A model generated the notes under the pieces. The model ran no database searches. It was given only the letters and a program-made list of their open reading frames with translations, and was not told where the DNA came from. 64,000 nucleotides of DNA, taken from NCBI RefSeq assembly GCF_000419525.1, contig NZ_ATTE01000001.1, forward strand, positions 2,092,655 through 2,156,654, in the 5' to 3' direction. Below are positions 20,689-45,206 of the stretch, piece by piece (the first letter of the stretch is position 1; each line of letters begins with the position of its first letter). The stretch is from Leucothrix mucor DSM 2157 (GTDB taxonomy: Bacteria; Pseudomonadota; Gammaproteobacteria; Thiotrichales; Thiotrichaceae). Made by a program: the position numbers and the translations under genes.

Positions 20689-23600
20689 CTACTCTTGATA
20701 CAAGGTATCAATCTGGCGAACCACCCCACCCTGCCCATCCGGTGAAATCATCGATACCGTGAACTGATTCCCCGTTGCGGCGAGTAGTCGGATCACGCTG
20801 ACCGAGGCGCCACCTTGCTCTGTTAAGGTCAATATGCCGTTAGCTAATTGCCAATTAAACGCAACCGCATCATCACTGCCTAAGGGGTAGCGCACACCAC
20901 TGCCGTTATTTTTCAACCATAGGGTCATGGATTGCTTAACACTGCGAAGGTATCTTCCGGATACTTGGTTCAGCGCAAAGCCATTACTACCCAAACTGCC
21001 CAGCCAGTTATTTGAAAGGTAACGCACGGGACTGTTTAAGGTCTCACCAATCACCGTGGTCTCGAGGGTTTCCAGAGCCGTCAGATACGTTTCTGCATGA
21101 CCTGCGGTATTAACACTATAGATCACATGCTTACCGTCACCAGAGAGCACGGCATGTTCCACACCATTGACGTTATAAACCACATCGGTTGTCGTATCTT
21201 CTGCTAGATCTTTAACGCGGTAGCGCAGCATTGAGGTGCGCTCTGACCAACCGATCTTATTCCCATCGTCAGTAATGCTTGGGTGATAAAGCTTTTTACG
21301 ACGCGCAATCACCCGCACTTCTTTGTACTTGCCATTCACAATGTCGTAACGCATTACGGCAAAAGAACTGGGGCGCAACTGCACAAAGGTGAGCCACTCG
21401 CCATTGGGGCTTAGTGAAGGCTGTACAAACGGATTGGCACTGGCCAGTATCGCACTGGTGAACTCGCCATTATCCTGATACTGCCGAAGTTCAACGGCTT
21501 GACGGCCATCAGCTAGCCGCACCTGCCAGGCGACAGTACGGCCATCGCGACTGCGAGTGACATCGGCGTCATCGGTATCGTTATCGGTGATTTGAGTGAC
21601 AAAGCCACTCGCGGTTTCCAGCTCATAGATTTCGTAATCGCCTCGAACGGCATCCTTCATAGAGAACAGAACACTCTCACCTGACGGCGCACAAGCCACT
21701 GACTGGATGGTGCGGTTCTTACTCATGCTGTAAACCGGCGTACCGGTTGCGTTAGGGAGGTCAGCCAGGTTGTATTGGTTAATGCCCCAGCGGCGTGTGC
21801 TGCTGTTCGGGTCATTGACTACGTTGCAGGCATAGCCCCAAAGCCCTTTGTTGAAGACAGTATCTTGGTTGTCGATAATGCCATCGCCATCAGTGTCTTG
21901 TAACTGAGGGTTAGTATTGGCTCGATACTCATCAAGGTTAGTTAGGTTATCGCCGTCTGCATCAGCAGCTGCATCACTCTCATCTAGCGGGTCTAAACCG
22001 TTAGCGATCTCCCATGCATCAGGCATGCCGTCATTGTCATCGTCGGTATCTGCATTGTTCTCAATACCATCACCATCATTATCGGTTACAACTAGGCCAC
22101 TAAGCGTTAGCACAATATTTGCAAACTCAAAATCATCATAATCAAGAAAGCCGGACATTTGGCTAATCACTGCTAAATCATTACTACCTAATTGATAGCC
22201 GCTTTTTTCCAGTGCGATAGTATAAGTTTTATAACTACCATCGGAGGGAGACGCATCAAGCTTAAAGGAACTACTATTCACCGATAGCATACCGCCGGTT
22301 TGGATACCTTTCGCTTTAAAACTTAGACTTGCTTTTTCATAACCATTGTATTGAAGGGCACTCACATCAAACGACTTACTAAATTGAGTTCCTTCCGTTA
22401 CCTTTTGAAATTGAGAGTTAGCACTACCACTGTAACCGTCGTCCCCCAAGTGATGAACCTTAGGCTCAATCTCTAACACTACCTCATTGGCCTTAATGGG
22501 ATTAATCACAAAGTCCACCTGGTAACTATCTTCAGAGCTAATCTGCAGTGTTTCCGTTGCGGGATGGTAACCTTCCTGAAAAGCATAGATTAAGTACGTC
22601 GTAGCTGAAGCGTCGTCGAAATAAGACTTATCAACCTTAATTTCGTAATTTCCAGAAGTATCAGTAACAGCGGTTGCACTCTGTTCTTCGCCATCCACTA
22701 GGTACTCAAACTTTACATTGATGCTTGGAACCGCCTCACCAGTATCATTACTAATAGTGCCTGTAATCACTTTCTTAAACGTTGCTTCTTCTTCCCCTAA
22801 TTTGTAAAGTGCTTGGATTTCTCCCTCATTTAAAGTTCGATCATAGATCCTTACTTCATCAATTAGCCCATAAAAAAACTCAATCTGACCGTTACCAGGA
22901 CCTGCTTGGCCTATGGTAACAGGCGTGTTTTTAATGATTAAACTACCTAGATCATTTATTACTGAGTCTCTCTTAACTTGTGAAACACCATCAACAAAAA
23001 ATAATAAAGTAGTGCCATCGTAGGACATCGTCACGTTGTGCCATGTATTTGCAGTCCCCTCATATCCAATGTAATCCCAAGTTTTAGGACTTGCTAAGGT
23101 ACTAACGCCTCCCCCTAATTGCTCTCCATTCTGCTCATCACCCATTCGGATTTCCCAACTGCCGCTGGTATAATACCCATTATTTACGATACCCTGATAA
23201 GTTTGAAACTGTCCCGTTCTCTTAAACCAAACCGACACTGAGAAATTTTCTCCCCAGTTTGTGTTTTTAAATGAATCAACTGATATTTTACTAGCACCAT
23301 CAAAGCTCCCCGCCTTTCCAGTAATACCGTTAGCATAAGTAACTGAGCCACTCTCTACACCATCGTTTTCGTTACCAGAACTATCATTAGCATTACCTTC
23401 AAACTCGTAGTAAGCAACTAAACCCTCTTGTAAGTTAACACTATTAGAACCTCTAACAGTAACCACCAAACTATCACTTACTATCGCACCATCATCATCA
23501 GTGATGGTTAAAACCAACGTATGTTTTCCAACGGTCGTCGGGGTATAGGCAAACTCAGCCGTATTAGCTAACACCGTGTTTCCTTCTCTCCACTCGTAAC

Positions 23601-24102
23601 TAACAACCATACCATCACTATCTGTTGCCGTTCCGGTAATCTTTATTGAAGTATTTACTACAGGTAATATTTTATCTTCGCCAGCACTAACAATTGGTGC
23701 TTGGTTACTAACACTTCCGGGATAGTCATCTTTATCTTTGGGGTCAGTGCCCTCGGTTATTTCCTCTTCGTCACTAACACCATCGTTATCGTCATCAAGA
23801 TCACAAGCATCACCCTGCCCATCTTGGTCAAAATCTAATTGGTTAGCATTAGCAAGGTATTTACAGTTGTCCGTATCATTATTAACACCATCATTATCAC
23901 CATCAGGTAGTGGATAATAAATGGTAATATCCACTGGAGTAACAGTAACATTGATTGGCTCCATCACAACATCAATAGGGTTCACAGTAACATCTATGGG
24001 CACATAGATAGGTTTCCCGTCAGTATGAAGGTCTAAACTAAAAACTGGTGCGCCATATAATATACATAGCGCCGACCCTAAAATAATATTTTTGAATGAC
24101 AT
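20689..24102 (-). CDS. Secreted PKD/LamG/TSP3 beta-propeller protein
   Basis: A 1,137-residue secreted protein with signal peptide (about 1-22) and an unusual short repeat of alternating PI-x-V-T/V-x-P strands (32-62). Domain order: TSP3 calcium repeats (68-130), PKD-type Ig fold (133-218, SYEWREGN and LTITDDDG), LamG/concanavalin-like domain (225-425, LVAYYEFEGNANDSSG to GLIDEVRIYDRTL), a carboxypeptidase-regulatory-like domain (440-530), an unassigned beta domain (530-655), a second TSP3 block (658-745), the shared propeller module (750-1040) and the shared tail (1045-1137). No catalytic motif is seen, so it looks like an adhesin or carbohydrate-binding member. It follows an independent small secreted gene upstream (24161). 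Confidence 0.85.
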   Translation of the reverse strand: MSFKNIILGSALCILYGAPVFSLDLHTDGKPIYVPIDVTVNPIDVVMEPINVTVTPVDITIYYPLPDGDNDGVNNDTDNCKYLANANQLDFDQDGQGDACDLDDDNDGVSDEEEITEGTDPKDKDDYPGSVSNQAPIVSAGEDKILPVVNTSIKITGTATDSDGMVVSYEWREGNTVLANTAEFAYTPTTVGKHTLVLTITDDDGAIVSDSLVVTVRGSNSVNLQEGLVAYYEFEGNANDSSGNENDGVESGSVTYANGITGKAGSFDGASKISVDSFKNTNWGENFSVSVWFKRTGQFQTYQGIVNNGYYTSGSWEIRMGDEQNGEQLGGGVSTLASPKTWDYIGYEGTANTWHNVTMSYDGTTLLFFVDGVSQVKRDSVINDLGSLIIKNTPVTIGQAGPGNGQIEFFYGLIDEVRIYDRTLNEGEIQALYKLGEEEATFKKVITGTISNDTGEAVPSINVKFEYLVDGEEQSATAVTDTSGNYEIKVDKSYFDDASATTYLIYAFQEGYHPATETLQISSEDSYQVDFVINPIKANEVVLEIEPKVHHLGDDGYSGSANSQFQKVTEGTQFSKSFDVSALQYNGYEKASLSFKAKGIQTGGMLSVNSSSFKLDASPSDGSYKTYTIALEKSGYQLGSNDLAVISQMSGFLDYDDFEFANIVLTLSGLVVTDNDGDGIENNADTDDDNDGMPDAWEIANGLDPLDESDAAADADGDNLTNLDEYRANTNPQLQDTDGDGIIDNQDTVFNKGLWGYACNVVNDPNSSTRRWGINQYNLADLPNATGTPVYSMSKNRTIQSVACAPSGESVLFSMKDAVRGDYEIYELETASGFVTQITDNDTDDADVTRSRDGRTVAWQVRLADGRQAVELRQYQDNGEFTSAILASANPFVQPSLSPNGEWLTFVQLRPSSFAVMRYDIVNGKYKEVRVIARRKKLYHPSITDDGNKIGWSERTSMLRYRVKDLAEDTTTDVVYNVNGVEHAVLSGDGKHVIYSVNTAGHAETYLTALETLETTVIGETLNSPVRYLSNNWLGSLGSNGFALNQVSGRYLRSVKQSMTLWLKNNGSGVRYPLGSDDAVAFNWQLANGILTLTEQGGASVSVIRLLAATGNQFTVSMISPDGQGGVVRQIDTLYQE

Positions 24103-28300: not shown

Positions 28301-29543
28301 TATCGTAGTCAGCAAGATCAATCCCACTACCTGATGCCTCAAACGCTGTGATCGCCTCATCGTATAATGTTGTACTGCCCGCAGAGACGTAATAGCCCGT
28401 CTGTCTAGGTAACCGAATAACAGAATCGCTCACCTCGGCCTGAAGACTGGTTTTACCGCGAGACATATTACTGAGCATGAGCGAGGCGCTGCCATTCAGT
28501 GCTTGCTTGAGAGACGCTTTGCTAATTGGCTCGCCACTCAGATTAGAGAAATCGATGCGGATGAAAAATACTTTTTTCTGGCTAGTCGTCCAATCATTCG
28601 ACACTCTGTTCTGTAACACCAAACGCTCGCTAAGAGGCAAGCCTGTTTCCGATGAAGACTCTGTGCTAGCCGCCATTTCAAACAATATTTGAGAGCCGGT
28701 ATTAGGGCCAAGCTTTTGCTCAAGCTCCAACAGTGCCCGATTAAGCTTGTCGACATTTTCCATCGCTGAAAAATAGAATACTTTGCCACCCGCAAGTGCG
28801 AGGACTGGCGAGCCACTGATAGACTCTCCAGTATAAAAATCCACTGATGTGTTTTGTGCTGCGGAGGGGAAGTTATCCAGTACATAAGACTGATCGCGAC
28901 TGCTAAGTACCTGCAATGGCTCGTCACTCAGCACGGCTTCACCATCTAGCGAGATACCCTGCCCTGCGATACCTTTCTTTGAGGTGATTGCCTGGCGCTC
29001 TCCATAGCGATTTAACGTTAAATACGTTGATTCGCCTTGTAGCTTAATCTCTGTCGTTAAACCAGGTGCGCCAAGCCCCACGCTGTGGCTGCCGATTTCA
29101 CCTTCATTGGGTAGAACGACTAAGTCAACTTGGCGACTAAACGGTTTTTCCACCCATTGCGCGATCTCTGGAGGAAGTTTGGCATACTCAGATAAGCTGA
29201 GTGACTGCCGCAATGCGCGCTCAGGATCACTTTTCATTAGCGCTTTTATCTTTACAGACCGCTGTTTGGCAAGCTCGACCCCTTTATCAAGGCTGGCTTG
29301 ATCACTTGTAGAAGCTGCTGATTGCAACCAAGTATCGAACGCATCGACACTAGTATCCGCTTGGTCCGTTTGAGCAGAGGGATCGGCCAAAGCCTCCTCA
29401 ATTAACTCACTACGAACCGTTTCGTTAGTGGGCGCCGGTACCGGCCCCTCTCGCGTCATAAAAAGGAGACTGCCAACAATGGCAGCTCCTACTATTCCGA
29501 TAACGATATACTTTAATGTGACGGACTTTGATAATGGCTGCAT
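25305..29543 (-). CDS. Metzincin-type protease with PKD, BNR-like, TSP3 and beta-propeller domains
   Basis: A 1,412-residue protein with an N-terminal membrane anchor or uncleaved signal (about 10-30). A pro-region reaches about 320. The zinc protease domain (about 320-520) has the HEFGHNYGLLH zinc site at 453-463 and a YDIMG Met-turn near 487-491, the metzincin arrangement (M11/M12-like). Then come a beta region, PKD (about 660-735, YQWDFGD), a BNR/YCF48-like propeller of stress-sensor repeats (740-1065, VAVGDGG, VLRSTNSG), TSP3 repeats (1070-1165) and the shared propeller module (1170-1405). The protein stops abruptly after SNNWVGGSAD, where the paralogues continue into the 90-residue tail; the stop coincides with the IS630 remnant. 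Probably a cell-surface or secreted protease. Substrate unknown. Confidence 0.85.
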   Translation of the reverse strand: MQPLSKSVTLKYIVIGIVGAAIVGSLLFMTREGPVPAPTNETVRSELIEEALADPSAQTDQADTSVDAFDTWLQSAASTSDQASLDKGVELAKQRSVKIKALMKSDPERALRQSLSLSEYAKLPPEIAQWVEKPFSRQVDLVVLPNEGEIGSHSVGLGAPGLTTEIKLQGESTYLTLNRYGERQAITSKKGIAGQGISLDGEAVLSDEPLQVLSSRDQSYVLDNFPSAAQNTSVDFYTGESISGSPVLALAGGKVFYFSAMENVDKLNRALLELEQKLGPNTGSQILFEMAASTESSSETGLPLSERLVLQNRVSNDWTTSQKKVFFIRIDFSNLSGEPISKASLKQALNGSASLMLSNMSRGKTSLQAEVSDSVIRLPRQTGYYVSAGSTTLYDEAITAFEASGSGIDLADYDIVGIYFDKIGIGSGYAGLASVGGDRQWLQGDSSPRVVVHEFGHNYGLLHANFWTLDDGGVVGGNGLSEEYGDSYDIMGSGSAESGHFHPQALSKLDWLSTSEWQTVSSSGTYRVRRFDDKEATGLQGLKISRGNGDFYWLGHRENYDSNPWLESGIYLIWQPAGYEQSWLIDTTPNSFSDHDEDKQDAGVVIGQTYSDTSAGVHITPIAKGGAVGSEWIDVRVQLGSFTGNAAPTVSIQNVSQAYARTPATFTAVASDPDGDELAYQWDFGDRVVHSNSASVEQTWVVGGDYNVKVTVSDTKGKTATHELSVSVQDPLLSWNQRASGMTSSDLSAIATDGNTLVAVGDGGGAGGLVVLHSDNGREWEKAATTWKYKNGSTFSTYNFHFESLIHNGTTWFAVGKDYDFSLNQWVGVILSAGNAKDWTVQYYGGSPLYDIAANNNVLVAVGHEGRVLRSTNSGSAWTSSTLGSADLSGVAFGNNEFIIVGVNESTRFSDTDGVLYTSTNGAAWQAADNSGDLSTITAISYLNDRFVGAGFYTGIQYRVSEQQGFVLARSVDSNYGPEALTFANGVYIAMGGTADSYLSLDGYNWTAFDAQVQTTRNAVVYFGGSFVSVGDQGKIYQSNATSTRPVNDDNDNDGISDATDLDDDNDGMPDAWEIQYGLNSLSALDAQLDLDGDNLTNLEEYLAGTDPDNVDTDGDGINDDVDNGISGYACNVVSDPDSSDRRWGINQYNLADLPNVVAEPVYSMSKNRTIQSVSCDPAGSNILFSMKDSVRGDYEIYELETASGLVTQITDNETDDADVTRSQDGRTVVWQMRLPDDRQALELRQYQADGELISSVTLASANPFVQPSLSPNGKWLTFVQLRPSSFAVMRYDVLNRQYKEVRVIARRKKLYHPSITDDGNKVGWSERTSMLRYRVKDLAEDITTDVVYNVNGVEHAVLSGDGKQVIYSVNTDSHAETYLTHLEALDTQVIGETLINPVRYLSNNWVGGSAD

Positions 29544-29677
29544 CCCTGATCCTTAGCGTAGTAACCCTTAACGCTGCATGAACACAATCGTTAAAAGTAG
29601 ATTCCCAAGCTTTGATAATAGGACATAACCAATCAAAATAGAACCGAATAACGGGTTTTTACCAATAGCAGAACTTA

Positions 29678-29767
29678 TTACTCCAGATATAATCTCTGAA
29701 TCTCAGATATAGATAGTTCTCGGTTATACATTTTAATATCATCAAGCCGCCCAGAACCATTACTCAA
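29678..29767 (-). pseudogene. Ghost of a LamG domain C-terminus
   Basis: Just downstream of the RCC1-like gene, and in a different frame from it, the minus strand encodes GRLDDIKMYNRELSISEIQR followed by a few residues and a stop codon at 29678-29680. This matches the final strand of LamG domains, such as GLIDEVRIYDRTLNEGEIQA in the protein at 20689. No start codon or rest of the domain is present. It looks like what is left of a former 3' end, displaced or replaced by the present RCC1-like C-terminus. Confidence 0.65.
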
Positions 29768-31998
29768 TCAAGCGCTAACTCAGGAGGCACAAAGTTTCCT
29801 CTTAATCCAATCACACGACCAGCTGATGTCAATGCAAGCGAGGGGGTCATTGCAACAATCTCCTCATCACCTTCCCACAACACACTTATAATACCTTCCG
29901 ACCAAGTTACAATCGTTCCATTACTTCTAAGAACAACTGCCTCGTTACCTGCTCCTGCAATTGCTACCGCATCATTTAACTCAGCGGGTACAGGGCCAGG
30001 GTCCTGATAAGTAGGTGATGAATAAACGATAGTTCCATCTCTCTTTAGTGCCATTATGGAGCTATCAAGATTTGTAGATATGGCAGCTATATCACTCCAG
30101 TCTTCTGGCACCTTTATAAAATCATAACCCCAATGACTCACCGTTCCATCTGACTTTAAGGCGACACCGCTCCAATACCCTGCTGCGACAGCGACCACAT
30201 CACTCAAGCCTTCAGGTATCTTATTGGCTCCTATGCCATAGCCCTTCACGGTACCATCGGCGAATAAGATCACCGTAGTATCGCCGCCTGTTGCTACAGC
30301 TACAACCCCTTCTATTGGGGAATCTCCTGACCAATTAAGTTGCCCGGCAATATTATCTCCCCAGCCTACAATTGTGCCATCGGATTTCAATGCCACAAAA
30401 TGATCACCAGAGGTCGAGACCGCCACTATATCACTCACGCTATCTGGTTGTGGAATTAGTGGTGATCCGTAACCGCCATATCCCTCTCCCCAATACATTA
30501 ATGTGCCATCTTCTAAAACAGCAAGGTCGTCTCCAGCAATTCCGATGGCATTAACCTTCACTAAGACTTTGAAATTTGCAGTTACTTCTACATTGTTTTG
30601 CGGCATGACAAATGAACAGGTAGTTTGCTCTCCTGAGCACTCTCCTCCCACGCTTTCCCATGACTCAAACACGTAACCAGAGTCGGCTACCGCTGTTAGG
30701 GTAATTGAATCCCCCTCCTTGTAACCTTCTTCAGATTCGGGGAAAACATTGACAACGCCATTCGCTGCAAGAACCTTTATATTGTGCGTCTCAATATCTA
30801 CAACTGCGCTCAACTGATTACCTAGATACTGATTTTCTGCACGAAGCACTTTTCCTAGCCGATAGGTGCTTCCCGTACGCAATACCCGCATAAAAGTCTG
30901 CCGTTTATTCGGCGCATTAATGCTATATATTGCAGCCTCACCATCACCACTTAACATCGGATGTTCCAGCACATGCTGATCAGCATGGGAAATCTTGAAA
31001 AGCCTCTCGCTGGTATTTTTGGTCAGATCAGTCAGGATTAGCCATTGATACCAATGCTCTTCTCCCCATAGCGCCTTTGTTCCATCATTACTGATACTTG
31101 GATCGACAACATCAATATTAAACAACCGAGTATAAACTATTCCTAAAGTGGTGAACTCACCAGTGGACAATTGATAACGCAAAACATGTTTTCGGTTACG
31201 CTCATTGACCAAAATCAACCACTCACCATTGTCACTTAAAGAAGGCTGCGTCATTGGATATTTGCTGCCCAGCGCGATATCTGAATAGCTACCATCCTCA
31301 GCAATAGTGCGCACAAAAACCGCTTTACGGTCATCAGCCAAACGGCCTTGCCAGGTAATAACCCGACCATCCTGACTCATGCTGACATCCAGATCGTCGG
31401 TATCATTATCGGTCAGTCGCAGGATTTCATTATTGGTCTGGTCAATCAGGTAAATCTCGCTATCGCCACCCACTCCGTCCTGAGTCGCCATTAATACTTG
31501 GCTGCCATCGGCACTGCAAGAAACGGACTGTATCGTCGTGTCTTCATCGGATACAAACACCGCGGTTTGATTATCCGTATCCAGGCTCAGATCGTATTGA
31601 AGAATGCTCCAGCGATGTTTTCCAATCGGGGTATGCAAAATATTGCAGGCCAATCCGTCGATACTAACGCCGGGGCTCAGTGTGGTTTTGCTGAGTAACT
31701 CAGGTTCAGAGACCTCATCGGCGGTACTCCCGATCTCAGAAGATATTGCAGGGACAGATGCAACCGCTAACGGATCACTCAATAACACAGTATCAGTCAT
31801 GACCGCAGACACTGCCGGCGTCATGATTTGAAGTGGTGCTGCACTGGCCTTATCCAAATCCGATAATTGGTAGGGTGCATTGGACGGTTTCATAGGCGTG
31901 GTATCAGCCATTGCGGCACCAATCACGCTTATTAAAAGAAGGGCAAGTAAGCTGATTAACGAAACTTGCCGTAGCTTAATAGAGTAATGACTTATCAT
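29764..31998 (-). CDS. Secreted beta-propeller protein with InlB-type repeat and RCC1-like domain
   Basis: A 744-residue protein with a GGGAGC ribosome site and a signal peptide (about 1-31, ending IGAAMAD). After a linker of about 80 residues comes a variant of the shared propeller module (about 110-400: CNILHTPIGKHRWSILQYDL, IQSVSCSADG, DDLDVSMSQDG, WQGRLADDR, QPSLSDNGEW, HPMLSGDGEA). It belongs to the same subgroup as the module at 35008. A bacterial InlB B-repeat-like domain follows (about 405-475, GYKEGDSITLTAVADSGYVF), then about 265 residues of RCC1-like repeats (VALKSDGTIVGWGDN, VALKSDGTVSHWGYD). The RCC1 part forms a second propeller. No enzyme motif is seen. A LamG ghost lies just after the stop codon, hinting that the C-terminus was exchanged. 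Confidence 0.85.
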   Translation of the reverse strand: MISHYSIKLRQVSLISLLALLLISVIGAAMADTTPMKPSNAPYQLSDLDKASAAPLQIMTPAVSAVMTDTVLLSDPLAVASVPAISSEIGSTADEVSEPELLSKTTLSPGVSIDGLACNILHTPIGKHRWSILQYDLSLDTDNQTAVFVSDEDTTIQSVSCSADGSQVLMATQDGVGGDSEIYLIDQTNNEILRLTDNDTDDLDVSMSQDGRVITWQGRLADDRKAVFVRTIAEDGSYSDIALGSKYPMTQPSLSDNGEWLILVNERNRKHVLRYQLSTGEFTTLGIVYTRLFNIDVVDPSISNDGTKALWGEEHWYQWLILTDLTKNTSERLFKISHADQHVLEHPMLSGDGEAAIYSINAPNKRQTFMRVLRTGSTYRLGKVLRAENQYLGNQLSAVVDIETHNIKVLAANGVVNVFPESEEGYKEGDSITLTAVADSGYVFESWESVGGECSGEQTTCSFVMPQNNVEVTANFKVLVKVNAIGIAGDDLAVLEDGTLMYWGEGYGGYGSPLIPQPDSVSDIVAVSTSGDHFVALKSDGTIVGWGDNIAGQLNWSGDSPIEGVVAVATGGDTTVILFADGTVKGYGIGANKIPEGLSDVVAVAAGYWSGVALKSDGTVSHWGYDFIKVPEDWSDIAAISTNLDSSIMALKRDGTIVYSSPTYQDPGPVPAELNDAVAIAGAGNEAVVLRSNGTIVTWSEGIISVLWEGDEEIVAMTPSLALTSAGRVIGLRGNFVPPELALD

Positions 31999-32147: not shown

Positions 32148-32783
32148 CTAACCTCCCCGAATGGCGTAAACACGCTTCCATTTTGAAGGCTCTGTATCAT
32201 TATTTGTGCCACTCAATTCATAATCTAACGGGTCTGTATACACCTGAGAGCCAACGACTTTCCCATCCCTGAACACGGCATAAGCAGAGTCATAATAACT
32301 ATCTGTATAAGGAGCCGTTAGCGTAGATGACCAGGATAGATAAGCAACAGTGAGAGGGAAAACCTCCAAGTTTCTCGCAGGATCCGTGCAGGCCCGCTCA
32401 ACCACCGTAGCCAGCTCCTTGATATTTGGCATGCGCCAATCATAAACAACGGTGCCGTCATAACCCGCCAACCCCGTTGAGTTGATGCTGGACACACGAC
32501 TATTAGCACTCTGCCAAGTCGTTCTTGTTGCTCCTTGAGGGGTACACTCATCGTCGGTAACGTTATCTGGTGTTCCGTTATCATCAAAAACATGTCCTAG
32601 TGGGCAACGAGTCCATTCAAACCCCGTTGCATGATCTAGTGCAATTGCTCCGTTAATGGAAAAGCGAGCAGTCGGAGCCGTCTCTACAATGGACGCCTTA
32701 TTACAATACTGATCAGCACTGACAACAGAGTGATAAACAATGAATGAAAGAACAACCAGCCCTTTTAATGTATGTGTATGCAT
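32148..32783 (-). CDS. Small secreted DUF1566 (Lcl C-terminal-like) protein
   Basis: A 211-residue protein with an AAGGAG ribosome site and a signal peptide (about 1-23, VVSADQ). The remaining part is one DUF1566 domain: DHATGFEWTRCPLG near 52, then WRMPNIKELATVVERAC near 115 and YLSWSSTLTA near 148, with the usual conserved Cys residues, ending in VYAIRGG. DUF1566 is the C-terminal domain of the Legionella collagen-like adhesin Lcl and is widespread in secreted proteins of aquatic bacteria. The gene is directly downstream of the DUF1566 lipoprotein at 32816 (32-base gap), so the two are probably co-transcribed. A role in adhesion is inferred from the family only. Confidence 0.8.
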   Translation of the reverse strand: MHTHTLKGLVVLSFIVYHSVVSADQYCNKASIVETAPTARFSINGAIALDHATGFEWTRCPLGHVFDDNGTPDNVTDDECTPQGATRTTWQSANSRVSSINSTGLAGYDGTVVYDWRMPNIKELATVVERACTDPARNLEVFPLTVAYLSWSSTLTAPYTDSYYDSAYAVFRDGKVVGSQVYTDPLDYELSGTNNDTEPSKWKRVYAIRGG

Positions 32784-32815
32784 ACTTAATCTCCTTTAGA
32801 TAGAGCAGTAGCGAT

Positions 32816-34357
32816 CTATCGACTACTCACTGCCCGAACAAAATGAGGAGTGACTTTCGCATCCCATGAAGAAACGCTCACCCATGCGTTATCAGCATCG
32901 AACGTTGGAGAGGCTGTCCAATAAGATGCGGATTGACTATTCGGGAAGTAGCTGGTGTCGATTGACATATCACTACCATAAATACGAAGGGTGTGTAGCT
33001 CATCCACCGTAGGCATTCGCCAGTCACTAATACCACAAAGCGCTGAGGCATTGACTCTGCGGATAAAGTAATCGGTATTACAGAACGAGCCAAGCTTATC
33101 AGCACTATACCCAAAGCAAATATCGAGAGCACCAGTATCACCCGAACTACCGCCATTATTATGTGCTTCCGTGTTGTACCAGGTAAACATATCCCCGGAG
33201 TCATGTAAGCCACCATCAGTAGTCTTAACCTCCCAGGTTAACCCGGTTACATTGTCTTTTACGCAGGCCCAGTCCGCTGCATCGGCCGCCAGAGCAACAC
33301 CTTCTGAAGAAAGCTTCGTAAAACTAAATCCCCGGTAACCGTCACTATCATCGTCATCAGTAACATCTCGCCCGACCGCACCATCGACTCGATAACTCAC
33401 CCCCGTGTCGTTTAACGCGATCTTAAGTGTGGATGCCACCTCATCACTCATATCTCCTATTAACCCGTCATCACTGACTGCTGCAGCCCTAAAATAATAC
33501 GGCATACCATGATCTGGTGATTCAACCGTAATAAAATTTGACGTGACTGATTGAACGAGCTGTCCCTGATAAAGCGTTTGACAAGCAGATAGACTGCTAA
33601 TGGGTTGTTTTGCGTAACACACGGTGTAATTTGCCGCCCCCTCAACCGCTGCCCAACTAAACACAATATTCTCACCATCAACTACACTGCCGGCCTCTTG
33701 AGGCGCAGCCACGACCGGTGCTATCGTGACAGTTACCCGAGCAGTCTCCGAGTTAACGGTTCCGTCATTCGCGAGGTATGTGAATGTATCACTGGATGTA
33801 TAAACAGTGCCGGGAGTGTAACTGACGACACCATTTGTGAGTGCGCTAAGCGTGCCACTTTCAGGCCCTTGCACAATCTCGAATGTCAGTGCATCGCCAT
33901 CGACATCGGTTGCGATGAGATTAATATCAACTGCTTCATTATGGGCTGTGCTGACTGTAACGGTACTTGACACTGGTGGGTCATTTTGAGGACTGATCGT
34001 AAGACTTACTAAGCCTGACGTCGAATCCAATTCACCGTCACTAGCCTTAAAAGTAAACGTATCACTACCCGCGTAATTCGCATCAGGCGTGTACGTAGTC
34101 ACATTATCCACTAAGGCACTTAACGTGCCATGCTGTGGCTGACTTGTAATCGTGTAGGTAAGCGTGTCACCTTGAGGATCCGTTGCAGTCAGTCTTAGCA
34201 TGGTAGTGGTATCTTCATCTAGCGTGACTGTGATGCTCTCAGGAACAGGGGAGGTGTTGGTGACCTCCTCGCTTTTTTTATCAGAGCCACAGCCGCTCAT
34301 GATACCAAGTAACAATAAATACAGCGCTGCATGAGTTACTGTCCGATCACTTTTCAT
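32816..34357 (-). CDS. Lipoprotein with two cadherin-like Ig repeats, FN3-like region and DUF1566 domain
   Basis: A 513-residue predicted lipoprotein: signal peptide with lipobox IMSGC (Cys near residue 23). Two tandem Ig-like repeats (about 38-125 and 127-215) share TLTYTITSQPQHGTLSAL-type and DTFTFKASDG-type strands, as in bacterial cadherin-like/VCBS repeats. An FN3-like domain follows (about 220-312, ENIVFSWAAVEGAANYTVCY), then a DUF1566 domain (about 318-513: FTKLSSEG, WACVKDNVTGLTWEVKT, CGISDWRMPTVDELHTL, YWTASPT), ending HFVRAVSSR. There is no propeller module. It lies between two small DUF1566 genes in the same orientation. Probably surface-attached through its lipid anchor; a ligand-binding role is an inference. 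Confidence 0.84.
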   Translation of the reverse strand: MKSDRTVTHAALYLLLLGIMSGCGSDKKSEEVTNTSPVPESITVTLDEDTTTMLRLTATDPQGDTLTYTITSQPQHGTLSALVDNVTTYTPDANYAGSDTFTFKASDGELDSTSGLVSLTISPQNDPPVSSTVTVSTAHNEAVDINLIATDVDGDALTFEIVQGPESGTLSALTNGVVSYTPGTVYTSSDTFTYLANDGTVNSETARVTVTIAPVVAAPQEAGSVVDGENIVFSWAAVEGAANYTVCYAKQPISSLSACQTLYQGQLVQSVTSNFITVESPDHGMPYYFRAAAVSDDGLIGDMSDEVASTLKIALNDTGVSYRVDGAVGRDVTDDDDSDGYRGFSFTKLSSEGVALAADAADWACVKDNVTGLTWEVKTTDGGLHDSGDMFTWYNTEAHNNGGSSGDTGALDICFGYSADKLGSFCNTDYFIRRVNASALCGISDWRMPTVDELHTLRIYGSDMSIDTSYFPNSQSASYWTASPTFDADNAWVSVSSWDAKVTPHFVRAVSSR

Positions 34358-34406
34358 CTCAAATACCGGCAGTTATAGTTTGATTAAGCATAAATAGAGT
34401 ACCGAC

Positions 34407-34922
34407 TCAGTCATCGAGTCCTGAGGCCTCCTGTCCGCCCCGAACTAACCGAACATACTCATCGGCGTCCTCACCCTGCATGTAATCGTAGCCGTAGAAG
34501 AACTGGACGTGCCACGCGCTATTACTACTGTCAGCAGACGGCGAAGACGACCAATACATCCGGCTTTCTGTCGCAGGAAATACAGTCAAGTTAACTGCTG
34601 GCTCAACACAAGCTGCCTCAGCAATACTCATTAGTTCTTTTATATTTGGCAAACGCCAATCGCCTGCAGCCATTGCTAGTGCTAGTGCTTCTGACCAATT
34701 ATGTGTTGTTGCACTACCAGAGCAAGTCGTGCCGTCCCAGCTTTGTCCCACCGAGCAACGCTGCCAGATTAAACCGGTTTGCAAATCAGTCACCTCATCC
34801 CCTGAGACTGAAAAACGCGTATCCGGTGTTGAAGGAGAGACACGTTCATCGCACGTTTGTGCAGTCGCAGCGACACTAAGCAATAGCAAAAGAGCCGCGA
34901 ATGGTAAAAAACAAACTTTCAT
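34407..34922 (-). CDS. Small secreted DUF1566 protein
   Basis: A 171-residue protein. The start ATG 34922 is chosen because GGAAG precedes it and a clean signal peptide (FLPFAALLLLLSVAATAQT) begins there; the reading frame extends 33 codons further upstream without support. The single DUF1566 domain contains DLQTGLIWQRCSVGQSW near 48, WRLPNIKELMSIAEAAC near 90 and MYWSSSPSADS near 123, ending YVRLVRGGQEASGLDD. Four Cys residues match those in the small paralogues at 32148 and 40304. It lies downstream of the large propeller-DUF1566 gene at 35008, with an 85-base gap. Likely co-transcribed with it and with the lipoprotein that follows. Confidence 0.8.
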   Translation of the reverse strand: MKVCFLPFAALLLLLSVAATAQTCDERVSPSTPDTRFSVSGDEVTDLQTGLIWQRCSVGQSWDGTTCSGSATTHNWSEALALAMAAGDWRLPNIKELMSIAEAACVEPAVNLTVFPATESRMYWSSSPSADSSNSAWHVQFFYGYDYMQGEDADEYVRLVRGGQEASGLDD

Positions 34923-35007
34923 AATAAACTTCCTATTAACCTGGTGTACGGACACACGCACTGACAAGTCTTCATGCCTTGCTGACGTATCCTTGCAAAA
35001 AGCACAA

Positions 35008-37218
35008 TCACTGTCCGCCACGAACTAAACGAACATAGTAGCCGCTGCCCTCATTGCGCCCGAGGGTGTTGCCAGAGTAGAAATTGACGAGCGACGCATA
35101 GTCACTAAGGTCAGCATACGGCGAGGACGCCATCAGCGAGGACGACCAATACCCGCTATTTTTTGTATTAGGAAAATAGTCCGTATCAATAGACGGATTC
35201 ACCCGGTCATAACTGACAATAGAGCGTAGCTCCTCAAGCGCGGGTAAACGCCAATCTGAAGCGCCGCATAGACGCTGTGTATTAACACGGTTGATATAGG
35301 CCTCAGTATTGCAGTAACTCGTTGCGTCACCGGAGTAATAACCGTGACAGTTTTCACTGGTGTCATCAAAACCCGCAAAACCACCATCATTATTCGTATC
35401 AGTGCTATACCAAGTATAGGAGTCATCCGCATCGTGGAGGCCTTCATCGCCCACCGTGCCATTTCCACCCTGCTTAACCTCCCAGATTAAGCCCGTCACA
35501 TTATCTTTGACACAGGACCAACTCTCAGCGTTCGCAAGGAGTGTATTACCATTGATATCTAGCTTGGTATAGCTAAAACCAGCATGACCATCAGAGTCAT
35601 CATTATTATTAAAGTCGCGACCGTATTGGGCATCCTGGTCTGGGTAATCAGCTACGGGACAGGATAAACCGTTGGTACTGCCATCTGCGCATTGGGTAAT
35701 ACCGGTATCGTTGAGTTTGCCTGTGGCAATCGGTGTCTCAGCCAGAACAGTCTCCTGAAAGATGGCCATCATCTCGACATCCTTCGCTGGCATTACAAAA
35801 CTGCAGTCATAAAATGTTTCGCACAGATCAGTATCCGACCAACTAACAAACCGATAGCCTACATTGGGGGCCGCAGTCAGTCTAACCATGCTACCCTCCA
35901 GGTAGCCATTATCGGATTCCGGTGACACGACCACAGAGCCGTTAGGAGCTGTAATTGTTAACTTGAATAGTTGTAGCTCTTCAAAAGTCGCCGAGACACT
36001 CAGGTTTTCTTCCGTAACAACAAGCGTGCAAACTGGCTCCTGATCACATTGATCAACACCGACCCAACCACTAAAGACATAGCCCGCATCCGCTGTTGCC
36101 GTCAGGGTTACAGTATCCCCAACCAAATACCCGTCTGCGGATTCAGGAGAAAGACTAACGGAACCGTCATCGACCACCGAAATGGCGACGCTGTAGGTAT
36201 CAATCTCAACCGCTGCACTTAACTGACTCCCCAAATAACGATTTTCCGGCCAAAGCACTTTACCCAATCGAAAGATAGACCCTGAACGCAAAATCCGTAG
36301 AAAGGTTTGTCGCTTAGTCGGGGTGTCAATACTGTAAATTACCGCGGCCCCATCACCACTCAGCATCGGATGACCCAAGCCATCCCCCTCAGCGTAGCTA
36401 CCCTGTAGGAGCACGTCACTGGTCTGTGTCGACAGGTCAGTCAGCACCAACGCCTGACCGACGTCGACTCTAACCCAAAGGACGTTTGTTCCATCATTGC
36501 TAATACTGGGCGCGATGACGTCGTATCGACGATTATTGATTACTTCTACAATAGTGTACTCACCCGTAGATACCTGATATCGCACGAGATGGTCTACTGA
36601 GTTTCGCTCATTCACCATGATCAACCACTCGCCATTATCGCTTAGAGAGGGTTGGGTCATTGGAAACTTACTGCCGAGCGCCACATCCGTGTAACTACCA
36701 CCTTCGCCAATGGTTCTGACAAATACGGCCTCACGATCATCCGCCAAACGGCCTTGCCAGCTAATCACCTTACCATCCTGACTCATACTGACATCCAGAT
36801 CTTCAGTCTCATTATCCGTCAGGCGTTGGGTTTCATTATTGGTCTGGTCAATGAGATAAACCTCACTATCGCCACCTACGCTATCCTGAATAGCCATTAA
36901 TACTTGGCTGCCACCGGCGCTACAAGCCACTGATTGAATCGTTCTGTCTTCATCCATGACGAACACGGCTTTCTGGTTATCTGTATCGGTACTCAGATCG
37001 TATTGAAGGATGCTCCAGCGATGCTTACCAATGGGAGTATGGAGAATATTGCAGGCCAGACCCTCAATGGGGATACCGGGGCTAAGCGTGGTTTTACCAA
37101 GCAGTTCTGGTTCCGCAACTGAAGTATCCGCCATAACAGTACTCGACACACTCAGCGCTAAAACAGTAACCGTACTAATTAACCACCTAGCCAGAGGATG
37201 AAGACAATAACCGTTCAT
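35008..37218 (-). CDS. Secreted beta-propeller protein with two InlB-type repeats and a DUF1566 domain
   Basis: A 736-residue protein. ATG 37218 is chosen for its GGAG ribosome site and the signal peptide that follows (WLISTVTVLALSVSSTVMA). The propeller module (about 50-345) is of the same subgroup as that at 29764, with CNILHTPIGKHRWSILQYDL in common and QPSLSDNGEWLIMVNER in place of the QLRPS block. Two InlB B-repeat-like domains follow (about 350-425 and 427-495: GYLVGDTVTLTATADAGYVF and GYLEGSMVRLTAAPNVGYRF). The C-terminal DUF1566 domain (about 510-736) has WSCVKDNVTGLIWEVKQ, CGASDWRLPALEELRSI and YWSSSLM. It is the intact counterpart of the interrupted gene at 37384-40282, with the same propeller-DUF1566 architecture plus repeats. 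Confidence 0.85.
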   Translation of the reverse strand: MNGYCLHPLARWLISTVTVLALSVSSTVMADTSVAEPELLGKTTLSPGIPIEGLACNILHTPIGKHRWSILQYDLSTDTDNQKAVFVMDEDRTIQSVACSAGGSQVLMAIQDSVGGDSEVYLIDQTNNETQRLTDNETEDLDVSMSQDGKVISWQGRLADDREAVFVRTIGEGGSYTDVALGSKFPMTQPSLSDNGEWLIMVNERNSVDHLVRYQVSTGEYTIVEVINNRRYDVIAPSISNDGTNVLWVRVDVGQALVLTDLSTQTSDVLLQGSYAEGDGLGHPMLSGDGAAVIYSIDTPTKRQTFLRILRSGSIFRLGKVLWPENRYLGSQLSAAVEIDTYSVAISVVDDGSVSLSPESADGYLVGDTVTLTATADAGYVFSGWVGVDQCDQEPVCTLVVTEENLSVSATFEELQLFKLTITAPNGSVVVSPESDNGYLEGSMVRLTAAPNVGYRFVSWSDTDLCETFYDCSFVMPAKDVEMMAIFQETVLAETPIATGKLNDTGITQCADGSTNGLSCPVADYPDQDAQYGRDFNNNDDSDGHAGFSYTKLDINGNTLLANAESWSCVKDNVTGLIWEVKQGGNGTVGDEGLHDADDSYTWYSTDTNNDGGFAGFDDTSENCHGYYSGDATSYCNTEAYINRVNTQRLCGASDWRLPALEELRSIVSYDRVNPSIDTDYFPNTKNSGYWSSSLMASSPYADLSDYASLVNFYSGNTLGRNEGSGYYVRLVRGGQ

Positions 37219-38645
37219 ATGAAATACTCCAAAACACCAATGTTTGCGTGACCAGCCGAGCTGATCCATAAAAGCCATACTCTTAAAATACCACAATTAC
37301 AGGCCACAAATTATTAACATTAATCTAAAATATTTTTATGTCAGACCATACTAGCAGCGCGAATGATTTTTCTACATTCCCTTTTATCTTGTTCCACTAA
37401 CTAAACGGGTACTGTGGGCAGCGCTCTTAGGGTAAATAAAGTAATTACCGTTATAAAAATCAATGTTCCAGGCACCTTCAGCATCAGCAGAATTTGAATC
37501 CGCAGACCAAATATGTAAATCCGTCACCAGGGTGTTAACGTCATTAAAGTAATTGAGGTCAACTGCTGCATTTTTATTCCCATAATTGAGCGTTGAAATA
37601 ACTTCATGTCGCGAGGGCAAGCGCCAACTCGAAATACCACAGTATCCCGCTTGATTGACGCGGGCAACGTAAGCTTCGGTATTGCAGTACGTTGATGGGT
37701 CTGTAGCTTCATACCCGGAGCAATCATCCCTCTGGCTGTTCGCATATCCTTCGCTTCCAGCATTCGTATCAGCCGTCGTGCTGTACCAGGTAAATCGGTC
37801 ATCTGAGTCATGAAGCCCCTGATCACCTACACGATTATTCATACCTGTTTTAATCTCCCAGACTAAACCACTCACATCATCCCGCACACAGCTCCAATCA
37901 GACGCTGTTGCAGGCAAGGCCTTGCCATGCTCGTCAAGCTTAGTATAAGTAAATCCCGCCACGCCATCCGTATCGTCATTAAGCGTCACATCACGTCCAT
38001 ACGCCTGATCCTGATTTGGATGCGCAGCGCAATCATCAGGCAGACTCCACCAATCCTGCGTATCGACACAACGAGTAATGCCGGTATCATTTAATGGCTG
38101 ATACAGAGAGTTAGAATAAAAGGAGGCTAAATAGCGATCCGGCCCTGACAATGCAGCGCCTATAGGAATTATTTGCTGTGGCTCTGCCCACAGGCTCGCC
38201 AAATAAGATTGTCTGTCGCCATCAACCTCATTAACACTGAAGATCAGGGACTCACCCTCTCCAGATAGCATAGGGTGTTCAATGCCGTGTTCATTGGTAA
38301 CAACTTGATGAGATGTTTGACTTAAAACGTCTTTAACAATATAGCGATTACTTTGTCTTCCCTCTGTCCAGCCAACAAAATTACCATCATCACTAATGCT
38401 AGGATTGGAAATCCTTTTTCGGCGAGGCACCCGCCGTATTTCAGTAAACGCCTCTGTCGCCACCTGGTATCTGAGCACACTATAGTTGTTGGCACGCAAT
38501 TGAATAAACGTTAGCCACTCACCGTTTTGACTCAAAGAGGGTTGCAGGAAGGGGAATGCACTCGCTAAGCGCTTGGTGAGACGGTAGCTACCGTCTAATT
38601 TCAGTTGATTTATGTTAATTGCTTGCCGACCATCACTTAGCTCCG

Positions 38646-39860
38646 CAGGGCAAACGCATGAACATAAAATAATCAATTTCAGGGCCAGGTATCCTATAAA
38701 ATGAAGATTTTTCTTCATGAGTCAGCGCTCACTCTTAGAATACATCGAACAACTCCCCGACCCTCGTCAGTCTAACAAATGCAGCCACCGCTTTAGTGAA
38801 GCCATTTTTATGGCGGTCTGCGGTATTTTGTGCGGTGCTGATGACTGGAATAGCATCGAATTATACGCAAAAACCCGTGAAGATTGGTTTCGTCGCTATC
38901 TGAAACTCCCTGGCGGTGTTCCGTCTCATGATACCTTTAACCGCTTGTTTTCATTGCTGGATCCGGCGCATTTTCATGATATTTTTATCGAATGGGTACA
39001 GGACACATTAGTACAAACGGAGTTAGCGGGTGTCATTGCGGTTGATGGGAAAACGCAACGTGGCTCCCGCGGTCACTCTGCCCCCACCAGTCATACCGTC
39101 AATGCCTGGTCCACTGAGCTGGGTATTTGTTTAGGTCAGGAGACGGTAAATGACAAGTCAAACGAAATCACGGCAGTCCCTACCTTGCTGGAAAAGCTGG
39201 CGATTAAAGGGTGCTTAGTGACGGCGGATGCAATGAGCTGTCAAAAGAAGATTGCGAGTCAAATTGTGAAGCAGCAAGCGGATTACCTATTAGCGGTTAA
39301 AAAGAACCAACGGAGTCTGTATAACGCCATCGATACTCACTTTATGGGTTATTGGGCACAGCATCCGGAGGACTCACCGACTGATCCAGCGTTCAGTGTG
39401 ATGACGGATGCGAAACACCACCGTCAGGAGTATCGCCGTTGTTCGGTGCAAGACGCTTCCGGGTGGCCGGCACTCAAGAGCTGGGGGCTAAAACGGTTGC
39501 CGCAATTCAGTATGATCGGGAGGTAGGCGAAAAGAAAACCAGTGATATTCGTTACTTTGTGAGTAGCCGGGTGATGTCCGCCGAGGCGGTACTGATCGCC
39601 AGTCGCCAGCACTGGCAGGTGGAGAATAATCTGCATTGGGTGTTGGATGTTGCTTTCAATGAGGATCAATCCCGCGCTCGGCAGGGATTTGCCGCTAAGA
39701 ACCTGGCCACTGCCCGACAAATTGCGTTGAATTTACTTAAACAAGATACGACGATTAAGCTAGGCATCAAAAATAAACGGAAAGGCTGTGGCTGGAGTGA
39801 GAAGTACTTATGCCATATTCTGGGACTGATTGTTTGATTTATGTTCATGCGTTTGCCCTG
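38646..39860 (+). mobile_element. ISAs1-family insertion sequence, 1,215 bp
   Basis: The ends are perfect 23-bp inverted repeats starting CAGGGCAAACGCATGAAC. The element is flanked by a 10-bp direct duplication CTTAGCTCCG (38636-38645 and 39861-39870). Length, duplication size and transposase type all fit the ISAs1 family. It is inserted in a propeller gene in the opposite orientation to that gene. The transposase is frameshifted (see separate entry). Confidence 0.95.
38717..39837 (+). pseudogene. ISAs1-family transposase, frameshifted
   Basis: A DDE transposase in two frames: 38717-39526 gives 269 residues and the frame beginning near 39439 continues to 39837. The first part has YIEQLPDPRQ at the start, VDGKTQRGSRG near 115 and VTADAMSCQ near 171; the second part has the C-terminal block DIRYFVSSR, HWQVENNLHWVLDVAF and IALNLLKQ. 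A single-base change around the GGGGGCTAAAACGG stretch near 39480-39495 would restore a normal single reading frame of about 370 residues. Family members normally have one frame, and no classical slippery heptamer is present, so this is more likely a mutation or a base-calling error than programmed frameshifting. Its start codon overlaps that of the outward-reading fragment on the other strand. Confidence 0.85.
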
Positions 39861-40303
39861 CTTAGCTCCGTTTGCCAAGAAGCAACCGTGCCCTGCCTAT
39901 TTAGGGTGACGTGTAAGTCATCTTGCTCATTGTCAGTAAGTTGAAGAACCTGCTTGCTACCGTTCAGTAAGGCATATATTTCATATTTACTGCGTGGGCT
40001 TTCCTGCATAGAAAATACAATCACATTGCCCGTATAGCTGCAGGCAACTGATTGGATTTTACGATTATTGGCAATGCCAAACGCCGACCGGGAAGTGCCG
40101 GCATTTAAATCGTAAACGTTAATACCCCACTTACGAATATCTGTTGGAGTATGTACTACATTACAAAGCACCCCGGACATCAGAACATTAGGGGCTTCAT
40201 CAACAGCAAACGCGCCTGAAGGGATTATTAGACTAAGGAACGGGATCAGTACACCAACTAACCCTCTTTTGTAGATAACCATCGAGACTCCTGCTTTGGA
40301 CTA

Positions 40304-40810
40304 TTAGCGCACCATACGAACAAAGTCAGCTGAGCTGATATCATTGATAGAGATGCCCCCGCTATCAGGATGGAAAAACCATGCCGCCATTCGTTGCTCA
40401 TGATAAATGTAGGGAGATGAGCTCCATAAGAAAGCGCCAATACTATGAGGCGTGCCTGGAAAGACCACTGTGTTAATCGAAGGGCTAAAGCATGCTACTT
40501 CTGAAATACTCTCCAGCTCTTTGATATTAGGCAGCCGCCAAGTACCATCAGATAATGCAAGTGCGGCAGGCCAATCATATTGGGCTGCGATACCAGTACA
40601 GACTGTTCCATTCCAAGCCCGCCCTTCAGGACACCGTTTCCATATCAGCCCCGTCACATTATCTCTTACTTCTTTTCCATCCAGCAAAAAATCATAGCGA
40701 CTTAGCGGTGTACTACGCGCCATATGCTCATTACAACCTTGGGTAGCAGCCAGAGCAACTTGCCCTGATAAACCCGCAACAAATACAAACCATATGATGA
40801 CTTTGTGCAC
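40304..40810 (-). CDS. Small secreted DUF1566 protein
   Basis: A 168-residue protein starting at GTG 40810 with a strong AGGAGG site at the right distance. Signal peptide about 1-22 (GLSGQVALAAT). A single DUF1566 domain: DNVTGLIWKRCPEGRAW near 49, WRLPNIKELESISEVAC near 91 and FLWSSSPY near 127, ending DFVRMVR; it lacks the terminal GG seen in its paralogues. It lies directly upstream of the interrupted propeller-DUF1566 gene (21-base gap), so the small DUF1566 gene precedes the large one here, whereas at 34407 and 32148 the small gene follows a large one. Confidence 0.8.
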   Translation of the reverse strand: MHKVIIWFVFVAGLSGQVALAATQGCNEHMARSTPLSRYDFLLDGKEVRDNVTGLIWKRCPEGRAWNGTVCTGIAAQYDWPAALALSDGTWRLPNIKELESISEVACFSPSINTVVFPGTPHSIGAFLWSSSPYIYHEQRMAAWFFHPDSGGISINDISSADFVRMVR

Positions 40811-40884
40811 TTTTTCCTCCTCTAAAGCAAGGTCATTACTTACCTACTGAATGAGGCACTACCCGAATAGTCCGGGGAAGGTGT

Positions 40885-40936
40885 ATAGCTAACCGTATTA
40901 CCCGCAACACCGTGCTGCGGTTGACCGGTTAGCTAT
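40885..40936. repeat. Palindromic hairpin in intergenic DNA
   Basis: Perfect 11-bp arms ATAGCTAACCG and CGGTTAGCTAT flank an inner 5-bp stem CCGCA/TGCGG around a short loop. It lies upstream of the small DUF1566 gene, between divergently oriented genes. A terminator is unlikely because no T-run follows; a leader structure or small mobile palindrome is possible. Confidence 0.55.
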
Positions 40937-40952
40937 GAACGCTTCACCCAAA

Positions 40953-41103
40953 TCAATCATCCCCATATAGGAAGCCAATATTTCGGAATACCCCACCAAG
41001 GCCATCCGGAGCAATTACTGACACGGCATACCGAGTCCCAGCAATACCCAGCAGACGATAAATGGTTTTCGCCCCTAATGAGTCGGCGACAGACCCTGCT
41101 TAG
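40953..41103 (-). pseudogene. Ghost of the propeller-protein tail domain
   Basis: On the minus strand the frame ending at TGA 40953-40955 reads VADSLGAKTIYRLLGIAGTR and then YAVSVIAPDGLGGVFRNIGF before its stop. This matches the extreme C-terminus of the proteins at 17120 and 20689 (RLLAATGNQFTVSMISPDGQ and so on). Upstream, the frame is closed by a stop near 41101. The rest of that gene is gone, so this is the 3' remnant of another propeller-family member. The surrounding 40811-41264 interval holds no other gene; the promoter of the plus-strand gene at 41265 must lie at its right end, which is AT-rich. Confidence 0.75.
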
Positions 41104-41264
41104 TCACTACCTTTTCCTAATAAAATAGCATAGATATGAATACTGGTTTGATTAAAAAAACAACCTTGTTAGTATTTTTTATATAGGTTAGTATCTTGTC
41201 TTAAATACATATATAAGCATTTTTGGGCGATAAGCCCTGTCCTACATGAGTAGAGGAGTTCTAG

Positions 41265-42832: not shown

Positions 42833-43174
42833 GTATGCGTTCACGCCTAATCTAGCGCTCTACGCACAATTATGATAGATTTTCAGTCATTCAACTGACT
42901 ATGGATGATTACTTAATGGAGATCAGTGGGATTGCAGATAGCGTTACCTCGCTGAATGAGGCCAGACAGCTCCAAAGCGCCCTCAACGGATTCTCCGGAA
43001 CAACGTCATCAGCGCAAGAAACGGCCTAAGCCATCCCGAAGTAAAGGGGCGCAACCGGGACATAAAAACACGAACGCACCCTATTGCCGGACGATCAGGT
43101 GATACCATCCATCGCTACTTTCCTCTCTCACGCTGCCAGTGTGGTGGCGTCGTGACGCCAAACGCTCAACCCAC
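42833..43174 (+). mobile_element. Truncated IS66-family remnant (left end and transposase 5' part)
   Basis: It begins with the same terminal sequence (GTATGCGTTCACGCC) as the IS66 copy at 45072 and then follows it closely through the transposase start ATG 42916 and the N-terminal coding region. About 110 bases between the start region and the Ser/Asn-rich segment are deleted. Similarity to the 46765 copy stops at CCCAC 43174, where IS630-type sequence begins. No complete frame remains. Confidence 0.85.
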
Positions 43175-43600: not shown

Positions 43601-43697
43601 TGAGTACTTATTACTATTCGCCTGAACTCTGAAGTGGTGTAAACTTTAATTATCCACCATTGCACTTAAACAGCTATTCAAAAGGAGCTCTTATGTC

Positions 43698-44834: not shown

Positions 44835-45206
44835 GGGTGTTCAAAATTCTGTGTCAGCGGGTGTATTGGTCAAGTGAATCCTGACACATTAATTTCAAAT
44901 TCCAGGGGTGCCAAATCGCCATTAGCTGTAAAACTCCAGACCTGATCTGACAGTTACCAATTTTCAGGAGGTGTCTGTCAGGTTCGGTTTAGTTCACAAA
45001 CTTTTCTTTCCAGGTCGATTTCCCATCGACTAATGTCTGCATGCAATCGTTCAAACAACCAGCTCAGGCACGTACGCGTTCACGCCTAATCTAGCGCTCT
45101 ACGCCTGATTGTGATAGATTTTCAGTCATTCAACTGACTGTGGATGATTGCTTAATGGAGCTTAGTGAGATTGCAGATAGCGTTACCTCGCTAGATGAGG
45201 CCAGAC

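Follow-up and report, generated by a model that had tools for sequence, protein, structure and literature searches.

The stretch 29767-29681 on the minus strand, directly behind a propeller gene of Leucothrix mucor DSM 2157, appears from its sequence to be an untranslated LamG relic, in which the C-terminal strand of the domain remains and the body is gone. We hold it nearly certain that a LamG domain was lost at this place, next to the 3' end of the gene (gene 29764), and we think it probable, if by no means assured, that one illegitimate deletion within a protein made the relic. The leftover tail is a gene relic of an ordinary kind, and alone it is no proof of a special domain-swapping system. 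All positions are those of the window, the whole stretch of 64,000 nt that was analysed (NZ_ATTE01000001.1, positions 2,092,655-2,156,654, forward strand), within a genome of 5.19 Mb in 2 contigs. The features that carry the argument are the following.

29681..29767, minus strand: LamG C-terminal relic, LSNGSGRLDDIKMYNRELSISEIQRLYLE, with secure LamG homology at 29752-29690
29678..29680, minus strand: TAA ending the former LamG frame
29753..29775, minus strand: junction interval, the 23 bp left between RCC1 homology on one side and secure LamG homology on the other
29764..31998, minus strand: gene 29764, with an own-family propeller (aa ~116-395), an InlB-type B-repeat (aa 407-477) and an RCC1-like domain (aa ~484-744)
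29767..30549, minus strand: the RCC1-like domain, of BLIP-II size
20689..24102, minus strand: gene 20689, for the one protein of the genome in which Laminin_G_3 was found, with a propeller toward its C-terminal end
35008..37296, minus strand: sister gene 35008, whose propeller and first B-repeat are related to those of 29764; a second B-repeat and Lcl_C follow where 29764 has RCC1

The LamG relic

The relic lies in a frame other than that of gene 31998-29764, whose TGA (29766-29764) overlaps the first relic codon, and the third minus-strand frame has numerous stops around the joint. When the ends of the RCC1 units are compared, RCC1 homology ends with VPPEL, the last codon of which ends at 29776, while secure LamG homology begins at GRLDD (29752), the preceding LSNGS being not clearly LamG. 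The junction interval between them contains the codons for ALD and the TGA with which the gene closes (the protein ends VPPELALD), and these may be part of the relic DNA, now read in a different frame.

Against Pfam the relic matches Laminin_G_3 (PF13385) with 13.0 bits, below the whole-domain cut-off of 27.6 (E 0.12 over 24,736 models), and this is the sole Pfam name for it with E allowed up to 10. The match covers positions 132-151 of 151, the last 20 of the profile, without the domain body, so that what is left is no longer a domain; it reaches the profile end, and the stop comes three codons further. Laminin_G_3 was found at one place in the own genome (6 candidates), in gene 20689, where the earlier note had correctly put a LamG domain in the N-terminal part (aa 269-430, 67.1 bits, Pfam). 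The relic is identical to the tail of that domain at 10 of 22 residues (E 0.3 in one protein search, 0.19 in another); the first of these searches gave no match but the relic itself and 20689. At the DNA level, a 257-base query around the relic returned only that place and short chance matches from the own genome, and hence no copy of the region. No other LamG segment adjoins the relic in six frames, nothing else is recognisable in the 220-bp gap behind 29764, and a promoter and terminator scan of 29400-29900 gave only weak consensus matches.

The match was compared with several controls by means of a custom LamG model of 35 aligned rows; these come from 29 loci in related genomes, and the overlap of loci has duplicated several of them. 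With this model the relic scores 12.2 bits (E 0.025 over the 2460 six-frame window segments of at least 15 aa), ranking behind 20689 (133 bits) and ahead of segments at 9.1 and 4.1 bits. When the window was dinucleotide-shuffled 60 times, no match of any type scored above 8.7 bits, and none that ran to the profile end above 3.8. The 9.1-bit segment, a 13-residue inner LamG piece (27135-27088, minus strand, profile 112-124), looks like a chance match, and since it exceeds all 60 shuffles, these slightly understate real DNA. A control of 440,483 bp of real DNA from 110 loci of other genomes, some of them overlapping and with own-genome and model-training loci excluded beforehand, gave a best score of 5.7 bits for segments shorter than 60 aa and no profile-end LamG match among them. 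The earlier note's observation that a LamG tail lies out of frame right after the stop of 29764 is thus borne out, at 29767-29681 and above the controls.

The tail is also well preserved. Its 21 aligned residues score 27.4 bits, as against 22.8-43.3 (mean 33.7) for working LamG tails scored leave-one-out (16 distinct complete tails, 19 of the 35 rows having been dropped as duplicates or for want of the tail), and simulated neutral change, restricted to frames that stay open, gave medians of 19.7 at 10% and 11.0 at 20%. Because the relic falls within the range of working tails and simulated change brings the score down, the LamG loss would be fairly recent, or the tail would have been constrained until lately, as far as so short a stretch can tell.

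Two readings would do away with the relic altogether. That non-coding DNA resembles a LamG tail by chance finds some support in the 21 positions that make up the match, in the Pfam E value of 0.12 taken alone and in the other, probably chance, segment at 9.1 bits; it has against it that neither the shuffles nor the real DNA yielded a comparable tail match and that the match extends to the profile end with the stop close behind, and we hold it to be extremely improbable. The open frame, the TTG overlapping the TGA and the slight decay could instead mean that the tail is still translated, through a frameshift or from that TTG, as an extension or a 29-residue peptide. By eye there is neither a slippery heptamer nor a purine-rich ribosome site before the TTG, and to our knowledge a lone last LamG strand has no fold or role, which we count against this reading as well; we regard it as very improbable.

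Gene 29764, its RCC1-like end and its sister gene

The propeller of 29764 is PD40-like by eye and through sub-cut-off Pfam matches of its paralogues. Behind the B-repeat, RCC1_2 matches residues 484-744 with 54.3 bits (cut-off 22), and by eye this part consists of seven units, the last one short; six blades were modelled. An AlphaFold model built from seven aligned sequences (mean pLDDT 70.1, pTM 0.74) predicts an RCC1-type propeller fold for it, with pLDDT below 50 in the last unit (model residues 231-267; block pLDDT 25-33). Among solved structures the model (267 aa) comes closest to chains of beta-lactamase inhibitor proteins, 268-273 aa long; the first of them has TM 0.69/0.68, and 1jtd_B is named BLIP-II. 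BLIP-II and the bacterial RCC1_2 propellers are therefore alike to this domain in their RCC1-type units and length and in being the closest solved fold, and differ from it in that the domain here is part of a larger protein and is known from sequence and model. A free-standing RCC1 protein elsewhere (L060) has a like ending, VPESLSGG against VPPELALD, and on the strength of this ending and of the BLIP-II-like length the domain looks complete, with the joint at most 23 bp behind it.

The RCC1 part has a low, though not unique, GC3: 0.352 over aa 481-744, where aa 1-400 have 0.453. A value as low is found in 36 of 589 like-sized overlapping windows, from 13 other genes, and the overall GC of the part is normal; the low GC3 slightly favours a separate arrival of RCC1. 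A protein search found no second RCC1 domain in the own genome, and the 2 unplaced matches of an RCC1_2 family search there are probably units of 29764 itself.

The sister gene 35008 provides a comparison of paralogues within one genome, in which aa 76-479 are common and the C-termini differ. The two align only over this part of 29764, to about 30562; beyond aa 479 there is RCC1 in 29764 against a second B-repeat and Lcl_C in 35008. Codon-wise DNA identity over aa 161-480, in steps of 40 codons, runs 0.83, 0.80, 0.75, 0.60, 0.66, 0.67, 0.57 and 0.50, and the two are old paralogues. Near 30580, where the earlier note had proposed to look for a recombination junction, the homology does stop close by, but no sharp step of identity is seen, the values before the end being 0.57 and 0.50. 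Lcl_C (PF07603) itself occurs at 16 places in the own genome (within the window, for example, at 32148-37296 and 40304-40810), and in at least five cases a small gene stands beside a larger one.

Among 274 class genomes RCC1_2 was found in 36 (own included) and the B-repeat family in 32. No LamG shares an ORF with RCC1 in the 30 RCC1 loci listed (at L141 a LamG-like match lies in a separate ORF), and in an overlapping second set of 22 loci none has LamG behind RCC1 in the same ORF above threshold; at L061 LamG is in an ORF other than that of RCC1, and L014 has a weak partial LamG match of 10.0 bits. LamG shares an ORF with B-repeats in 2 of the 28 B-repeat loci listed, one of the 28 being 29764's own gene. 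These two are L177, from the same class, in which B-repeats are followed by LamG close to the C-terminus, and L173, with RCC1, B-repeats, LamG and then more in one protein; at L135 B-repeats stand both before and after RCC1. As most loci extend only about 1.5 kb to each side, these counts are lower bounds. From these sequences an RCC1-LamG ancestor and a B-repeat-LamG ancestor would both be possible, neither of them common. We found no literature on LamG combined with RCC1 and DUF1566, nor on terminal reassortment together with domain shuffling.

How the domain may have been lost

Under the deletion that we favour, the ancestor would have had a LamG domain behind the RCC1 unit in the same protein. 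An illegitimate deletion, non-homologous or by microhomology, would have taken out the LamG body and fused the RCC1 end to the last ~25 LamG codons in the wrong frame, where a TGA would be met after three residues, and the tail would have been left idle in the 220-bp intergenic gap. Protein function was probably kept along with the apparently complete RCC1 domain. A 7-bp repeat, GCTTGAT, lies on either side of the joint and is suggestive of microhomology there, at 3.1% by chance and having been picked after the fact. We count for the deletion that the LamG tail match stands above the controls, that the RCC1 domain looks complete, that no DNA copy of the relic was found and that the surroundings hold two more stubs, and likewise the order of domains in L173. 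Against it we count the 30 and 22 overlapping loci without LamG behind RCC1, by which an RCC1-LamG ancestor was no common type, as well as the low GC3 of the RCC1 part, the low confidence of its last unit, the lack of domain stubs in thirteen own-genome stretches outside the window, and that none of the alleles searched for turned up to display the earlier state.

Replacement of the C-terminus, by which an RCC1-like segment would have overwritten the LamG domain of a propeller-B-repeat-LamG gene and left ~25 codons of it, is possible but in our view doubtful. The sister gene, which shares only aa 76-479 and has Lcl_C in place of RCC1, speaks for it, as do the lack of a second RCC1 domain in the own-genome protein search, the low GC3 of RCC1 and the existence of a B-repeat-LamG protein (L177) in another genome of the class, which makes such an ancestor plausible though it stands at another locus. 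It is weakened by the gradual fall of identity toward the supposed 5' joint between two old paralogues, by the B-repeats before RCC1 in L135, which mean that this joint need not have arisen here, and by the searches for a donor, a LamG-ended allele and a flanking repeat system, none of which was found; moreover, it requires two joints where a deletion requires one. The tail could also be what remains, at the 3' end, of an independent LamG gene once situated between 29764 and 29543; its deletion would have taken the original 3' flank of 29764 with it. The otherwise blank 220-bp gap and the genes cut to stubs in the gap 40811-41264 would fit such a history; the absence of an N-terminal remnant in six frames and the position of the joint, precisely where a seemingly complete RCC1 domain ends, do not, and we consider it quite unlikely. 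We therefore rank the deletion ahead of RCC1 overwriting LamG, as it accounts for the same facts with fewer steps. Of the earlier note's proposal that a LamG-ended gene had been overwritten at its 3' end by an RCC1-like cassette, two parts hold, namely that LamG ended here and was lost and that the C-terminal domain is RCC1-like and absent from 35008; the overwriting of the one by the other finds no support.

The searches among relatives gave the replacement neither a donor nor an older allele. The full 29764 protein matched 8 of 57 genomes (own included), and the 56 relatives gave no propeller orthologue, the 7 that matched showing only partial propeller matches at 26-39%. At E 1e-5 it matched 20 of 369 class genomes (own included), again without a propeller orthologue in the other 368 and with partial matches of 27-31% only, in a shallow search that scored at most 2 candidates per genome. 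Scans with the propeller alignment, made with two short exact patterns and possibly leaving out the own genome, gave 31 pattern matches in genome_contigs and 14 in viral_contigs, with 0 confirmed in either. Plasmid records matched in 11 cases, all within aa 445-728 of 29764, and an RCC1 scan of genome_contigs gave 40 pattern matches and 7 loci at 28-34% identity. LamG had no match in six congeners, three of which are only 56-69% complete, and a LamG-ended allele of the 29764 locus was not found among the relatives searched. In one congener (G006) a gene pair that is Lcl_C-like by eye (L124:8990-11032) lies beside a gene that we take to be glgC-like, one of the pair matching the DNA of 35480-35622 at 69% over 143 bp, and no propeller was found in that genome; in another (G003) other genes lie beside the glgC-like gene. 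In G006 about 102 kb of one contig separate the flanks of the array, and in G003 they are on separate contigs, so the place of the array is not strictly syntenic.

The earlier note had likened the supposed exchange to the cassette replacement of polymorphic proteins. That comparison is not supported, as no donor, DNA copy, LamG-ended allele, RVT_1 or core fragment was found. The RVT_1 reverse transcriptase (PF00078) had no match in the own genome at E 0.001 (3 candidates scored), which speaks against a diversity-generating retroelement. In the C-terminal displacement of Rhs proteins (Jackson et al. 2009, PMC2935791), a former C-terminal piece lies silent behind a gene that now carries another C-terminus, as the LamG tail does here; the displaced Rhs tips described there keep a core fragment and are arrayed behind genes of the same core clade, unlike the LamG tail, which has ~25 codons and no core fragment and whose sister core is ~50-83% alike per 40 codons. 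We rejected Rhs-type displacement on the grounds that the 220-bp gap contains no propeller or B-repeat fragment and that the tail adjoins RCC1 within 23 bp, and strings of displaced tips of the Rhs type on the grounds that only ~25 codons are present and that the other stubs lie behind no intact same-strand propeller gene. An ordinary gene relic after deletion is likewise a truncated intergenic tail, out of frame and with its own stop, and more such stubs occur in the array; beside such relics the LamG tail is notable only for its good preservation and for sitting right where a seemingly complete domain ends.

The propeller array and its other stubs

The propeller family occupies 12 places (11 genes) in the own genome, in the window from 13524 to 42809, two of the places being halves of an IS-split gene. 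The propellers stand N- or C-terminal of PKD, TSP3, LamG, B-repeat, RCC1 or Lcl_C parts, and all their PD40 matches are below the Pfam cut-off. A tblastn search with the array proteins, for which 26 genes between 8332 and 51196 had been masked and in which the LamG relic appears at E 0.19, gave two further stubs, both in the gap 40811-41264.

40956..41075, minus strand: second stub, the last 40 residues before the stop of a propeller-protein C-terminus, found by tblastn
40846..40932, minus strand: third stub, a Big_9/cadherin-like fragment matching 32816 at aa 70-102 (E 0.001)

The second stub matches 17120 at aa 1103-1144 of 1150 (E 6e-5) and 20689 at aa 1102-1135 of 1137, and neither stub has an intact same-strand propeller gene before it. 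Outside the window, 14,145 unmasked bp in thirteen own-genome stretches yielded a transposase relic only and no domain stub. Close to these stubs an IS at about 38645-39861, presumably of the ISAs1 family by its looks, has its transposase in two frames (38717-39526 and 39439-39837) and inverted ends of ~24 bp, is flanked by CTTAGCTCC repeats and splits a propeller-Lcl_C gene (37384-40282). The stubs and this split gene mark the array, with its IS elements and its genes for paralogous multi-domain proteins, as a place of decay where genes get broken and trimmed.

Other traits of the surroundings were seen in passing. A 74-bp direct repeat (10378-10451 and 49297-49370, 85% identical) brings the 3' end of gene 9700-10458 back at the opposite border of a ~39-kb block containing the array, and these repeats resemble the ends of an old island. 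Transposase genes and fragments, which we take to be IS66-type, lie at 42833-48150, with pieces 85-91% identical. Gene 20689 is possibly a mosaic, with GC of 0.40-0.41 at 22001-24000 (the N-terminal part, PKD and LamG) against 0.51 at 21001-22000 (the propeller) and GC3 from 0.284 to 0.561 over 264-codon windows.

A wider reading would make the array a reservoir restricted to the species, where a propeller module of its own is joined to exchangeable domains, among them RCC1, LamG, Lcl_C and PKD, each exchange leaving a C-terminal tail with its stop, so that the LamG tail and the tail at 41075-40956 would be footprints of one recurrent process; we consider this rather unlikely. Were it true that several stubs record one process, this locus could serve as a model of bacterial protein reshuffling without a retroelement. 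The LamG tail in itself pins one domain loss to its site: little decayed and next to an apparently complete domain, it bears on how modular proteins change their C-termini; and as such a leftover is equally the mark of a plain deletion, it corrects the over-reading of leftover tails as signs of replacement.
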